40,030 nt of DNA from Thauera aminoaromatica S2 (GTDB lineage: Bacteria > Pseudomonadota > Gammaproteobacteria > Burkholderiales > Rhodocyclaceae), in the NCBI RefSeq assembly GCF_000310185.1, contig NZ_AMXD01000020.1, positions 1 through 40,030 on the forward strand, in the 5' to 3' direction. Below the pieces are notes generated by a model. The model ran no database searches. It was not told the origin of the DNA and saw nothing but the letters and a program-made list of their open reading frames with translations. This document shows positions 5,799 to 8,972 of the stretch, one piece after another. The stretch's first letter is position 1. Each line of letters begins with the position of its first letter. The translations under genes and the position numbers were made by a program.

Positions 5799-6623
5799 AT
5801 GGCACTCGCTTCGATCCGCCCGGCAGCCGTGGCCGGGCAGTTTTATCCTCGCGACGAGCGCGTGCTGCGCACCCAGCTCGCCGAGATGCTCTCCACCGCG
5901 GTCGCCTTCGAGTCGGCGCCCGCGCCCAAGGCGATCATCGTGCCGCACGCGGGCTACATGTACTCCGGGCCGGTGGCGGCGAGCGCCTATGCGCTGCTCG
6001 CACCGCTGCGCGAGCGCATCCGCCGCGTCGTCATGCTCGGCCCCACGCATCGCGTGGCAGTGCGCGGCTTCTCGCTGCCGGCAGCGCAGCGCTTCGCCAC
6101 CCCGCTCGGCGAGGTCCCGGTCGCACGCGGCGACTGGGAGGCCCTGCAGGCGCGCGACGATGTCCTGGTCGACGATCGCCCGCACGCGCTCGAGCACTGC
6201 CTCGAGGTGCAGTTGCCCTTCCTGCAGGTCTGTCTCGAGCGCTTCGAGATCGTCCCGGTGCTGGTCGGCGACGCCTCGCCCGAAGCCACCGCCAGCCTGA
6301 TCGAGCGCCTGTGGGGCGGCCCCGAGACCCTGATCCTGATCAGCTCGGACCTCTCGCATTACCTGAGCTACCGCGAGGCGCAATGGTCCGACCGCGCAGC
6401 GGTGGACCAGGTGCTCGAACTGCGCCCCGGTCTCGACCACGAGCAGGCCTGCGGCGCCACCCCGATCAACGGGCTGCTGCTCGCCGCCCGCAAGCACGAC
6501 CTGCAGGCCCACCTGCTGGACCTGCGCAACTCCGGCGACACCGCGGGCGACCGCTCGCGCGTCGTCGGCTACACCAGCATCGCCTTTTGTGAAGCGGAAC
6601 CCCCAAGCCATGCCCGACACTGA
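5799..6623 (+). CDS. AmmeMemoRadiSam system protein B (Memo family)
   Basis: 274 aa Memo-like protein, related to human MEMO1 and structurally to class III non-haem iron dioxygenases. Conserved points include PHAGYMYSGPVAA with His50, GPTHRV with His84, the block ALEHCLEVQLPFLQ, SSDLSHYLSY at about 182-191, and Cys218 in CGATPINGLL. These correspond to the metal-pocket His/His/Cys of MEMO1. The chosen ATG has a GCAGGA-type site about 7 bases upstream; ATG 5775 is in frame but lies before the conserved start SIRPAAVAGQFYP. It is the first gene of a three-gene operon, and its 3' end overlaps the AMMECR1 gene by 14 bases. The biochemical function of the bacterial system is unknown. Confidence 0.93.
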   Translation: MALASIRPAAVAGQFYPRDERVLRTQLAEMLSTAVAFESAPAPKAIIVPHAGYMYSGPVAASAYALLAPLRERIRRVVMLGPTHRVAVRGFSLPAAQRFATPLGEVPVARGDWEALQARDDVLVDDRPHALEHCLEVQLPFLQVCLERFEIVPVLVGDASPEATASLIERLWGGPETLILISSDLSHYLSYREAQWSDRAAVDQVLELRPGLDHEQACGATPINGLLLAARKHDLQAHLLDLRNSGDTAGDRSRVVGYTSIAFCEAEPPSHARH

Positions 6624-7176
6624 TTTCGGTACCACCCTGCTCGCGCTCGCGCGCACCGCGATCGCCCACCGCCTCGGCCGCGGCCCCGCCCCGGTCATCC
6701 CGGACGATCCCCGCCTGCACGAGAAGGGCGCGACCTTCATCACCCTCGCCAAGGACGGCGAGCTGCGCGGCTGCATCGGCAGTCTGCGGCGCTCGCGCGA
6801 GCTCGGCGAGGACGTGATCCACAACGCGCTCGCGGCGGCCTTCGAGGACTCGCGCTTCGAGCCGCTCGCGCCCGAGGAGCTCGGCGCGGTGGCGATCGAG
6901 GTCTCCATCCTGTCCGAACCGGAGTTCCTCGACTTCTTCGGCGAGGAAGAGCTGCTCGCCCAGCTGCGCCCCGGCAAGGACGGGCTGATCATCTTCTCCG
7001 GCTGCCACAGCGCCACCTTCCTGCCCCAGGTGTGGGAGCAGCTGCCCGAGCCGCGCCAGTTCCTCGCCGCGCTCAAGCACAAGGCCGGTCTGCCCACCAA
7101 CCGCGAGGTCGTCGAGCTGATGGCCGCGCGCTATCACGTGGAAAAGTTCAAGGAGACCGAACGGGAGCCCTCATGA
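6610..7176 (+). CDS. AmmeMemoRadiSam system protein A (AMMECR1 domain)
   Basis: 188 aa AMMECR1-domain protein. The invariant LRGCIG motif is at about 52-57, preceded by GATFITLAKDG and followed by AFEDSRFEPL and EVSILSEPE. These are the core signatures shared with human AMMECR1. The activity is unknown; a role together with Memo and the radical SAM enzyme in modifying a protein or RNA target has only been inferred from genomic context. An alternative start at 6589 would increase the overlap with the Memo gene; 6610 (MPDTDFG) is preferred. The stop overlaps the radical SAM start as ATGA. Confidence 0.93.
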   Translation: MPDTDFGTTLLALARTAIAHRLGRGPAPVIPDDPRLHEKGATFITLAKDGELRGCIGSLRRSRELGEDVIHNALAAAFEDSRFEPLAPEELGAVAIEVSILSEPEFLDFFGEEELLAQLRPGKDGLIIFSGCHSATFLPQVWEQLPEPRQFLAALKHKAGLPTNREVVELMAARYHVEKFKETEREPS

Positions 7177-8297
7177 ACACGAAGCCCGCGCCAGCCGCCG
7201 AGGTCGGCAGCCGCCATCCCGCGCGCTACTGGCACCGCATCGACGACGGTCGCTACCAGTGCGACCTGTGTCCGCGCCTGTGCAAGCTGCACCCCGGCCA
7301 GCGCGGGGCCTGCTTCGTGCGCATGCGCGAGGGCGACGACATGCTGCTCACCACCTATGGACGCAGCTCGGGCTTCTGCATCGACCCGATCGAGAAGAAG
7401 CCGCTCGCCCACTTCTACCCGGGCAGCAAGGTGTTCTCCTTCGGCACCGCCGGCTGCAACCTGGCGTGCAAGTTCTGCCAGAACTGGGACATCTCCAAGT
7501 CGCGCGACCTCGACACCCTGATGGACGAGGCCTCGCCCGCGGAAATCGCCGAGACCGCGCTGCGCTGGGGCTGCCACAGCGTCGCCTTCACCTACAACGA
7601 CCCGGTGATCTTCGCCGAGTACGCGATGGACGTGGCCGACGCCTGCCATGCGCGCGGGCTGAAGACCGTGGCGGTGACCGCCGGCTACATCTCCGAGTGC
7701 GCGCGGCGCGATTTCTTCTCGCGCATGGATGCGGCCAACGTCGATCTCAAGGGCTTCACCGACGACTTCTACGTCAAGCTGTGCGGCGCCCATCTGCAGC
7801 CCGTGCTCGACACCCTGGTATGGCTGCGCCACGAGACCGACGTGTGGGTCGAACTCACCACCCTGCTGATCCCCGGCCACAACGACTCCGACAGCGAGGT
7901 CACCGCGCTGGCGAACTGGGTGCGCAAGGAGCTGGGCGCCGAGGTGCCGCTGCACTTCAGCGCCTTCCACCCCGACTTCAAGATGGACGAGCTGCCGCCC
8001 ACGCCGCCCGCCACGCTCGCGCGCGCGCGCCGCATCGCCCTCGACGCCGGCCTGAAGCACGTCTACACCGGCAACGTGCACGACATCGAAGGCGACACGA
8101 CCCGTTGCGCGAGCTGCGGCGAGCCCCTGATCGTGCGCGACTGGTACGAGATCCGACGCTACGCCCTCGGCAACGATGGCCACTGTCCGCACTGCGGCAG
8201 CGTGCTCGCCGGTCGCTTCGCTGCAGTGGGCGCCGCGGTCGGCGACGCCTTCGGCGCGCGCCGCATCCCGGTCGCCATCCACCGTCACGGCACCTGA
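7173..8297 (+). CDS. AmmeMemoRadiSam system radical SAM enzyme
   Basis: 374 aa. The radical SAM cluster motif is CNLACKFC (Cys95, Cys99, Cys102) within GTAGCNLACKFCQNWDISK, which closely resembles pyruvate-formate-lyase-activase-like members. Two further Cys sets are visible: Cys30, 33, 37 and 47 near the N-terminus (CDLCPRLCKLHPGQRGAC) and Cys312, 315, 338 and 341 near the C-terminus (CASCG...CPHCG). These could bind zinc or an auxiliary cluster. The segment FTYNDPVIFAEYAMD is typical of the family. The substrate is unknown. The gene starts in ATGA overlap with the AMMECR1 gene, so the three products should be made together. Confidence 0.94.
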   Translation: MNTKPAPAAEVGSRHPARYWHRIDDGRYQCDLCPRLCKLHPGQRGACFVRMREGDDMLLTTYGRSSGFCIDPIEKKPLAHFYPGSKVFSFGTAGCNLACKFCQNWDISKSRDLDTLMDEASPAEIAETALRWGCHSVAFTYNDPVIFAEYAMDVADACHARGLKTVAVTAGYISECARRDFFSRMDAANVDLKGFTDDFYVKLCGAHLQPVLDTLVWLRHETDVWVELTTLLIPGHNDSDSEVTALANWVRKELGAEVPLHFSAFHPDFKMDELPPTPPATLARARRIALDAGLKHVYTGNVHDIEGDTTRCASCGEPLIVRDWYEIRRYALGNDGHCPHCGSVLAGRFAAVGAAVGDAFGARRIPVAIHRHGT

Positions 8298-8315
8298 GCG
8301 CATTCGACCCCCAAC

Positions 8316-8972
8316 GTGAAACTTCGAAACACCCTCATCAGCATCCCCGCACAGGGCGCGTGGCTCGACGGCCTGCTTGCACACGCGCCGGACGTGCGCG
8401 GGCTCGCCATCCTCCCGCAGTCGAGCGGACACCCTGCGCTCGACAGCGGGCCCCGGCCGGTCGATGTCGCCCTGCAGTCGCGCGGCTTCGCCACTCTCCG
8501 GGTCGACCTGCTGACCCGGCAGGAGGCGCTGCGCGACCCCGATGCGTCGTACAACATCGCCCGCCTGACCGAGCGCATCCTCGCGGCGGTCGAGTGGATC
8601 GCCCACCAGCCGCCGCTCGCCGGGCTGCAGCTCGGCCTCGTCACGCAGGACACCGGCTGCGCCGCCGCGATCCGCGCGGCGGTCAAGGCGCCGGAGACCT
8701 TCGCGGCGATCGCCTGTGTCGACGGCCGCGCCGACCTCGCGGGTGCCGAGCCCTTGCGCCAGCTGCGCTGCCCGGTGCGCTTCATCGTCAGCCCCGGCGC
8801 CCCGGAGAGCGCGATCCTGGAGAAAGCCTTTTCCCTGCTCGGGGGGGCGCGCCACTGGCTCGCCCTGCCCGACACCGGTGACGCCCGCCAGCAGGAGATC
8901 CTGCAGGCGCGGGCGGTGACGAGCTGGCTCGAACAGCACCTCGCCGCGGCCGAGCGCACGCGGGTGGAATAG
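8316..8972 (+). CDS. alpha/beta-hydrolase-like protein lacking the catalytic triad (dienelactone hydrolase family pseudoenzyme)
   Basis: 218 aa. The overall order of segments follows the small dienelactone-hydrolase-like family often fused to phosphoribosyltransferases: VALQSRGFATLRVDLLT, ILAAVEWIAHQ, a GLVTQDTGCAAAIRAA nucleophile elbow, VDGRADLAG and a C-terminal helix. The working residues are gone. The elbow, normally G-A-S-T-G, reads TQDTG with Asp112 in place of Ser. The oxyanion strand, normally HGSGSS, reads LPQSSGHP. The Asp loop near 158-165 reads SPGAPES, and the usual ATH is DTG near 186-188. The start is a GTG with no clear ribosome binding site, 18 bases after the radical SAM gene, so it is probably part of that operon. 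An Asp nucleophile as in dehalogenases is a formal alternative, but the His is missing. Confidence 0.65.
   Translation: MKLRNTLISIPAQGAWLDGLLAHAPDVRGLAILPQSSGHPALDSGPRPVDVALQSRGFATLRVDLLTRQEALRDPDASYNIARLTERILAAVEWIAHQPPLAGLQLGLVTQDTGCAAAIRAAVKAPETFAAIACVDGRADLAGAEPLRQLRCPVRFIVSPGAPESAILEKAFSLLGGARHWLALPDTGDARQQEILQARAVTSWLEQHLAAAERTRVE

Follow-up and report, generated by a model that had tools for sequence, protein, structure and literature searches.

A complete AmmeMemoRadiSam operon in Thauera aminoaromatica S2 followed by a lineage-specific gene for a predicted hydrolase-fold pseudoenzyme

The window, by which we mean the whole stretch of 40,030 nucleotides of Thauera aminoaromatica S2 that was analysed, contains four consecutive genes on the plus strand. 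The first codes for Memo (AmmeMemoRadiSam protein B; 5799-6623, 274 aa, ATG start) and is followed by those for AMMECR1 (AmmeMemoRadiSam protein A; 6610-7176, 188 aa), which carries the motif LRGCIGS with C55, and the AmmeMemoRadiSam radical SAM enzyme (7173-8297, 374 aa). The fourth, here termed gene X (8316-8972, 218 aa, GTG start), codes for a predicted pseudoenzyme of the alpha/beta-hydrolase fold, of the 2o2g dienelactone-hydrolase subfamily. The Memo and AMMECR1 genes share 14 bases, the ends of the AMMECR1 and radical SAM genes share ATGA, and 18 bases separate the radical SAM stop codon from the start of X, just as an earlier sequence-only reading of this DNA had described. That reading had also recognised a complete AmmeMemoRadiSam operon, and its coordinates and gene order hold: Memo scores 270.9 bits against the NCBIfam model TIGR04336 (cut-off 26), AMMECR1 185 bits against TIGR04335 (cut-off 99) and the radical SAM enzyme 618.7 bits against TIGR04337 (cut-off 220). 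As in the system these models define, all three genes adjoin with overlapping ends; the window differs in adding X. A sequence scan found no terminator-like site separating X from the radical SAM gene; three such sites, versus 1.1 expected, lie inside the Memo, AMMECR1 (minus strand) and radical SAM genes. Judged by model scores and gene order, the AmmeMemoRadiSam operon is complete, and the fourth gene is an addition specific to certain lineages. Outside the operon, divergently on the minus strand, lie ispD (4959-5669; TIGR00453, 231.3 bits, cut-off 181.3) and ispF (4468-4962; TIGR00151, 208 bits, cut-off 116.45).

The Memo protein matches human MEMO1 (PDB 7kq8) with an E-value of 1.2e-17, and its H50 and H84 align with the metal-site residues H49 and H81 of the human protein. 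The alignment covers residues 7-190 only, so that the metal-site cysteine of MEMO1 lies beyond it; C218 would be the equivalent of this third ligand, C244 of MEMO1. In an alignment of relatives H50, H84 and C218 are each kept in 92 of 96 rows. PMC11081632 describes the MEMO1 metal ligands and states that no dioxygenase activity was detected with the substrates tried.

The radical SAM enzyme has the CX3CX2C motif of its family (C95/C99/C102), flanked by an N-terminal set of cysteines at 30/33/37/47 and a C-terminal set at 312/315/338/341, at the positions listed in the sequence-only reading. A further conserved cysteine, C69, is absent from that list. Each of these cysteines, C69 included, is present in 96 of 98 rows of relatives (the other two are gap rows, one of them probably the incomplete L128), and the same complement recurs in 36/36 rows of a phylum survey in which three genomes occur twice. 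Among 14 rows of diverged paralogues C33, C69 and C315 vary. The earlier suggestion that the flanking sets imply a peptide or RNA substrate finds no support, because they are traits of the family as a whole, and zinc-ribbon models match the C-terminal set only below cut-off. The nearest solved relative by sequence is the pyruvate formate-lyase activating enzyme (3c8f; E 6.7e-08). The window's enzyme differs from the glycyl-radical activases in its extra cysteine sets at both ends and in its score against the activase model TIGR02493, which at 61.2 bits falls far short of the cut-off of 231.75. An apparent TGA within the frame of paralogous radical SAM genes, as in selenoproteins, was dropped as a lead: in the one case examined (G514, L301) its coordinates make it the ordinary stop codon.

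AMMECR1, which matches the solved structures 1wsc, 1vaj and 1zq7, shows a pattern that concerns the cysteine of its LRGC(I)G motif. C55 is Cys in 95 of 98 aligned relatives and Ser in three. It is kept wherever the radical SAM gene is present (95/95, 6/6, 28/28 and 10/10 in four sets of rows), and lost in all eight examined AMMECR1 genes from genomes devoid of that gene, which represent two lineages. No AMMECR1 match turned up in ten more genomes of the family that lack the radical SAM gene; Haloferax volcanii, a control genome outside the set of eight, matches the AMMECR1 model and not the radical SAM model. Since the cysteine is missing from every examined AMMECR1 of genomes without the radical SAM gene, we infer that the radical SAM enzyme acts on this residue or by way of it. 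A methanogen protein with the AMMECR1 motif has been assigned by bioinformatics to phosphomevalonate decarboxylase in PMC7772410; other literature describes the AmmeMemoRadiSam families as uncharacterised or of unknown function.

The product of gene X matches PDB 2o2g, a dienelactone hydrolase from Anabaena variabilis, in a phmmer search (E 6.6e-17). Its AF2 model has a mean pLDDT of 91.8, and Foldseek searches with this model return 2o2g as the top hit (E 8e-18, TM 0.87/0.88, 28% identity), pointing to an alpha/beta hydrolase fold in common. In contrast to 2o2g, which keeps a GASTG elbow, X has TQDTG and lacks the catalytic Asp and His: its triad sites, numbered by hand, are D112, A162 and D189. 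The designation of the fourth gene as a hydrolase-like pseudoenzyme is therefore upheld by sequence and predicted structure alike. No Pfam family, DLH included, matches X up to an E-value of 1, and the best NCBIfam hit reaches E 0.11 and 12.2 bits, where the cut-off is 400; a dead relative, from G064, does pass Pfam DLH. In Nitrosomonas, Gallionella, Candidatus Ferrigenium and a Methylophilaceae bacterium, for example, the radical SAM gene is followed by members of the same protein family that differ from the window's X in keeping both GASTG and the THLF His motif. Among the linked copies checked, the triad is lost in 41 of 42 within the window's taxonomic family and kept in 7/7 from other families; of 80 named loci, 14 combine system genes with a GASTG version of X and five with a non-GASTG version. 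All 18 active rows have S/D/H. The 54 non-active rows (41 from copies immediately downstream of the radical SAM gene, 13 from copies elsewhere) have Gly (32), Asp (20), Ala (1) or Arg (1) at the Ser site; two retain a His at the His site, and 52, gaps and unknowns included, do not. Active members also occur elsewhere: five of ten long frames examined are fused to phosphoribosyltransferase domains, two of these five also carry an erythromycin-esterase domain, and 40 plasmid records hold distant relatives.

Having lost the whole triad, X appears, from codon and residue comparisons, to be kept at the operon under purifying selection. Its dN/dS ratio is 0.15-0.35 in five pairs, versus 0.09-0.35 for the other three genes. 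Residues common to active and dead versions comprise T60, L65-L66, E70, R87, G137-R138, D140-L141-A142 and W204; the dead versions additionally conserve D76 (0.91), Q98 and R120 (0.94), sites peculiar to them. The dead version may descend from the operon-linked active one, but the decisive branches in the tree of X are weakly supported (84/28 and 86/89) and its bootstrap did not converge; the tree was built without G011, part of whose sequence is unknown.

Of 29 Thauera genomes, 24 have X at the operon. In 20 it comes directly behind the radical SAM gene, in three it follows AMMECR1 with no radical SAM gene present, and in one its neighbour is a radical SAM stub where the contig ends. The remaining five (G005, G009, G012, G025 and G028) carry the system without any match to X. 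Among relatives with the radical SAM gene, the window's genome included, X is directly 3' of it in 50 of 97 and not so in 47; a copy in G059, about 0.3 kb away, is counted as linked. Across the order X directly follows the radical SAM gene in at least 51 of 148 genomes sampled, from 13 families, and at least 67 genomes have both genes; it does not directly follow in 97 of the 148, among the matches listed. Up to five X candidates were scored per genome, making these X counts lower bounds, and the order table leaves out X matches below about 85 bits and the second radical SAM place of G134 (1/150). Co-occurrence of the two genes gives a Fisher p of 2.6e-18, kinship being ignored. Going by inferred starts, a 4-base overlap with the radical SAM stop codon occurs in 13 of the 40 linked dead copies of X and in 3 of the 8 linked active ones. 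X thus stands beside the operon well beyond a few strains, the circumstance on which the sequence-only reading had staked its case, and this linkage across genus, family and order rules out a chance neighbour or a strain-specific gene. X is nevertheless accessory and not a regular member of the system: half to two thirds of operons do not have it directly after the radical SAM gene.

For the 49 loci in which phmmer gave no adjacent copy, a profile search with filters off recovered one, L147 (the copy in G059), and found no X within 2.5 kb in the other 48; two of these 48, L143 (G071) and L178 (G032), end 30 and 175 bases past the gene and are no test of absence. In G071 X lies at the edge of another contig, and in G069 and G065 it lies 3.5 to 5.7 kb downstream. 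Outside the order, no X was seen in 50 loci, not all from distinct genomes and some with short flanks, which comprise the 30 best-scoring places of 101 matching genomes and 20 picked by hand (14 paralogues, 3 repeats). We make no claim of confinement to one order, since L242, titled only 'Gammaproteobacteria bacterium', has the operon with an active X. Where Memo and AMMECR1 are fused, X directly follows the radical SAM gene in 0/12 cases. The idea that such fusions replace X as a scaffold was dropped, the difference not being significant once kinship reduces it to two to five independent comparisons; adjacency was here scored by eye, 48 of 49 loci were measured for spacing, L115, L177 and L178 were left out, and L128 was only 16% filled, with a false long branch.

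Genomes that have lost parts of the system bear on the association of X with its neighbours. X is intact in five genomes without the radical SAM gene. Three of these retain an AMMECR1-X pair, with Memo kept in G022 and gone in G015 and G019 (the latter has a weak partial match to the Memo model, 27.3 bits, on another contig); as all three form one clade, this survival counts as one event. In G041 and G084 an intact X frame remains at the same chromosomal site without AMMECR1, Memo or the radical SAM gene, G084 retaining a Memo remnant of 32-39 residues, so X can persist without AMMECR1.

In the literature searched, at the level of passages, we found no description of a hydrolase in an AmmeMemoRadiSam operon. 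Burroughs et al. 2019 (J Biol Chem, doi 10.1074/jbc.RA119.007595) reportedly widened the known Memo neighbourhoods, so the hydrolase may already be listed there. That study is cited in PMC7159879.

The interpretation we put forward, tentatively and at a little under an even chance, is that X would be a subunit of the system that binds without catalysing, its partner most likely being AMMECR1, and that the radical SAM enzyme would act on the LRGC cysteine or via it. X would most likely keep binding the ligand or partner of the former active hydrolase and no longer hydrolyse, since its fold, the residues common to active and dead versions and the sites specific to the dead set are all kept. AMMECR1 would be its likeliest protein partner because the pair persists in the clade just described, where the radical SAM gene is gone throughout and Memo in two of the three. 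Against this stand the retention of X without AMMECR1 in G041 and G084, the five Thauera genomes with the system and no X match, and the incomplete linkage in both surveys. The cysteine link is in turn weakened by the fact that C55 was lost in two lineages only; furthermore, human AMMECR1 keeps LRGCIG, although we know of no animal with this radical SAM gene. The same observations in G041 and G084, with all three partners gone, favour a somewhat unlikely alternative in which X merely shares a transcript and has a role that has nothing to do with the other three proteins, as do the 47 relatives in which the radical SAM gene lacks an X right behind it, and the active members elsewhere, phosphoribosyltransferase fusions and plasmid records included. 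Such separateness sits badly with direct linkage in at least 51 of at least 67 order genomes having both genes, across 13 families, with the 4-base overlap seen in 16 of the 48 copies measured and with the pairing of AMMECR1 and X that outlasted other losses in one clade. If true, our interpretation would tie the conserved cysteine of AMMECR1 to radical chemistry. The joint absence of this cysteine and the radical SAM gene indicates the residue to mutate. MEMO1 and AMMECR1 being human proteins of unsettled basic chemistry, X offers a new handle on the system, and the natural series of active hydrolase, dead hydrolase, AMMECR1-X only and X only guides the choice of proteins for co-purification.

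The sequence-only reading had offered X as a scaffold, substrate or regulator. X may be a scaffold or regulator; as a substrate it fits poorly. Many peptides modified by radical SAM enzymes are encoded beside the radical SAM gene, as X is, yet X as a substrate or peptide target seems very unlikely given a predicted folded domain of 218 residues, its persistence in five genomes lacking the radical SAM gene and its frequent separation from that gene in both surveys (47/97, and 97/148 among the matches listed). It is quite unlikely that X retains enzymatic activity through remodelled chemistry, using an Asp nucleophile at the elbow or the pocket residue C134. The elbow of the window's X and its near kin, QDTG or HDTG, resembles what we take to be the Asp-nucleophile motif of haloalkane dehalogenases, and 81% of the dead versions have Cys at the position of C134, but the elbow residue is more often Gly than Asp and switches among close relatives (Gly in G006, Asp in G010 and G027), which argues against a catalytic role of this site; 52 of 54 rows lack the His, and G018 and G004 have Phe in place of C134. 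An X in decay, left over from an ancestral hydrolase, would accord with the disappearance of all three catalytic residues; this reading is extremely improbable in view of its full-length open frames, its dN/dS values and the conservation of R120 and D76 in the dead and not the active set. A more elaborate scheme, which we regard as unlikely, would make AMMECR1 a carrier or target modified by the radical SAM enzyme at or through the LRGC cysteine, with Memo as a metal-dependent oxidising partner and X binding the product; X would once have hydrolysed this AMMECR1-carried product and in Thauera and its kin would now only bind it. This carrier scheme is open to test, because two lineages devoid of the radical SAM gene have lost the cysteine. 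The ispD/ispF neighbours recur opposite the operon and back to back with it (37 of 94 loci); under this scheme, such a neighbourhood would suggest that the product is related to isoprenoids.

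The three AmmeMemoRadiSam genes of the window lie on the plus strand as Memo (5799-6623), AMMECR1 (6610-7176) and a radical SAM enzyme (7173-8297), all passing the NCBI AmmeMemoRadiSam models, and are followed on the same strand by a fourth gene, X (8316-8972), coding for a 218-residue dienelactone-hydrolase-like protein with replaced triad sites. These coordinates agree with the 14-base overlap of Memo and AMMECR1, the ATGA overlap of AMMECR1 and the radical SAM gene, and the 18-base gap preceding X that had been described from the sequence alone. Consensus scans detected no sigma-70-like promoter in 5500-9900 and no terminator-like match between 8297 and 8316; against an expectation of 1.1, they placed three terminator-like matches within genes, namely Memo, AMMECR1 (on the minus strand) and the radical SAM gene. 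The gene 3' of X (8993-9622) encodes a SprA-related protein; matches to it occur in 10 of the 94 related loci, and in genome G084 such a gene likewise lies 3' of X. The cysteine sets of the radical SAM enzyme (30/33/37/47 with C69, and 312/315/338/341) are kept in 96 of 98 aligned rows and 36/36 phylum-survey rows (three genomes twice), with C33, C69 and C315 varying in 14 diverged paralogue rows. The sets define the family and give no strain-specific hint. Being family-wide traits, with a zinc-ribbon likeness of the C-terminal set only below the cut-off, they do not lead to the peptide or RNA substrate that the sequence-only reading had drawn from them.

Searches with X recovered no match in Pfam and none of note in NCBIfam. 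It matches one solved structure, PDB 2o2g (E 6.6e-17), a dienelactone hydrolase of Anabaena variabilis that is also the top Foldseek rank (E 8e-18, TM 0.87/0.88) for its AlphaFold2 model (pLDDT 91.8, pTM 0.90; 28 aligned sequences as input). The Ser, Asp and His sites of the window's X are occupied by D112, A162 and D189, and this replaced triad, along with the 2o2g match and the Foldseek fold, upholds its earlier labeling as a hydrolase-like pseudoenzyme. Pfam DLH or Hydrolase_4 is scored by four relatives with an intact triad (active X); of six lacking it (dead X), one (G064) passes DLH and five are without any Pfam match. Distant relatives, each with less than 60% identity, occur on 40 plasmid records. 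At five loci (L202, L208, L223, L247 and L248) X relatives in which the elbow, the motif around the Ser site, is intact or nearly so are fused to phosphoribosyltransferase domains, with erythromycin-esterase domains additionally fused in L202 and L223.

That X is more than a local neighbor is borne out across Thauera, 150 relatives and an overlapping order sample of 399 genomes. In Thauera, X is present in 24 of 29 genomes, always at the operon site: 20 copies follow the radical SAM gene, three follow AMMECR1 where the radical SAM gene is missing, and one (G011) adjoins a contig-edge stub of the radical SAM gene; the three-gene system occurs with no X match in five genomes. Of the 150 relatives, a set that includes the window's own genome, 69 have X and 97 the radical SAM gene; in 50 of these 97, X lies directly 3' of the radical SAM gene in the same orientation (49 loci and the window, counting G059, where the two are ~0.3 kb apart). 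In the remaining 47, two loci stop at a contig edge, two carry X farther off, 3.5 to 5.7 kb downstream, and a profile search within 2.5 kb of the radical SAM gene (1.3 to 2.2 kb of sequence at three loci) detected no X in the others. The order sample has the radical SAM gene in 148 genomes, X in at least 86 and both in 67, a co-occurrence with Fisher p 2.6e-18 when kinship is not taken into account. X immediately follows the radical SAM gene in 51 genomes of 13 families; these X counts are lower bounds, at a threshold of ~85 bits or better and with at most five candidates scored per genome. None of 50 fetched loci from outside the order has X; a separate named locus, L242, from a record titled only 'Gammaproteobacteria bacterium', combines the operon with an active X.

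The triad is kept in 18 of 72 aligned X rows and is not intact in 54, where the Ser site holds Gly (32), Asp (20), Ala (1) or Arg (1); at the other two sites of these rows, Asp persists in 32 and His in two. Among linked copies typed, a set that omits further order-sample genomes, X directly after the radical SAM gene is dead in 41 of 42 cases in the window's family (the exception being G038) and active in 7/7 in other families. Unlike the window's X with its replaced triad, the copies beside the system genes in Nitrosomonas, Gallionella and Candidatus Ferrigenium have the GASTG elbow; across 80 named loci, system genes accompany a GASTG-bearing X in 14 and an X without GASTG in five. The dead copies tested are not in decay: their dN/dS is 0.15-0.35 in five pairs, comparable to the other three genes, and certain sites (R120 0.94, D76 0.91, Q98 0.83) are conserved among dead copies but not among active ones. 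G137, D140, A142, R87, E70 and W204 are conserved in dead and active copies alike, and inside Thauera even close relatives differ in whether the elbow residue is Gly or Asp. The X tree neither supports nor excludes descent of the dead copies from operon-linked active ones. At L141 (genome G024), X is 71% identical to that of the window versus 93-97% for the other three proteins, which may mean that a recombination boundary separates X from the radical SAM gene.

In five genomes X is still present at the operon site but the radical SAM gene is missing: Memo, AMMECR1 and X remain in G022; AMMECR1 and X in G015 and G019, which form one clade with G022; X adjoining ispD/ispF in G041; and X with a Memo remnant of 32-39 residues in G084. 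A weak, partial hit to the Memo model (27.3 bits) lies elsewhere in the G019 genome. These five cases show that retention of X does not require the radical SAM enzyme, and gene content points to AMMECR1 as its most persistent, though not obligatory, companion. The main rival explanation, that X is an independent passenger, draws on its persistence in G041 and G084 without either AMMECR1 or the radical SAM gene; given also the linkage in 13 families, we hold it to be plausible, though less likely than a binding role. We favor X as a non-catalytic binding subunit, whose partner would most likely be AMMECR1. The window holds the known core system plus an accessory pseudoenzyme that is conserved and of which the parts of the literature searched gave no description.

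The cysteine of the AMMECR1 LRGC motif (C55 in the window), invariant elsewhere, is replaced by Ser in G015, G019 and G022 (L156-L158), the three Thauera genomes where AMMECR1 persists and the radical SAM gene is missing. An AMMECR1 search of the order matched 152 genomes, six of them without a radical SAM match. Five of these (L317-L321), from one genus of another family, have Arg in its place (LRGR), with no Memo, radical SAM gene or X in the fetched stretch; dN/dS values of 0.21-0.35 in ten pairs indicate purifying selection on their AMMECR1 as well. In the sixth, G433, which keeps the cysteine, a radical SAM start lies at the contig edge. Altogether, the cysteine is absent in 8/8 AMMECR1 genes examined that lack a radical SAM gene and present in 95/95, 6/6 (including G433), 28/28 and 10/10 rows with one, the last two sets including one genome twice. 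No AMMECR1 match was found in 19 further genomes without a radical SAM gene (9 from one set of 14 and 10/10 from another), a count that leaves aside G011, likewise without a match. As the eight losses amount to two events, they hint at a link of the cysteine to the radical SAM gene without proving it. Possible counterexamples are Haloferax volcanii, which scores with the AMMECR1 model but not with that of the radical SAM enzyme, and human AMMECR1, which keeps LRGCIG although humans are not known to have this radical SAM enzyme. Since the G022 Memo keeps its metal-site residues, cysteine loss there accompanies loss of the radical SAM gene rather than of Memo. We propose that the radical SAM enzyme might act on or through C55, and the correlation is directly testable.

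In the window, ispD/ispF (4468-5669) are divergent from the operon. They lie back to back with it in 37 of 94 loci from nine families, on the opposite strand in all 37, and adjoin the lone AMMECR1 in 5/5 of the L317-L321 loci; this neighborhood may be an old synteny. It recalls an isoprenoid link of Memo, reportedly proposed by Burroughs and colleagues in 2019. It also brings to mind PMC7772410, where phosphomevalonate decarboxylase is the function assigned to a protein with the AMMECR1 motif. Memo and AMMECR1 form one open frame at 12 loci (L074, L075, L083, L088, L100, L120, L125, L131, L134, L140, L142 and L144), 0/12 of which have X directly after the radical SAM gene. In a second system type (L296-L306) the radical SAM gene is diverged, and in 9 of the 11 loci the frame after it is a single long one that matches Memo as well as AMMECR1.
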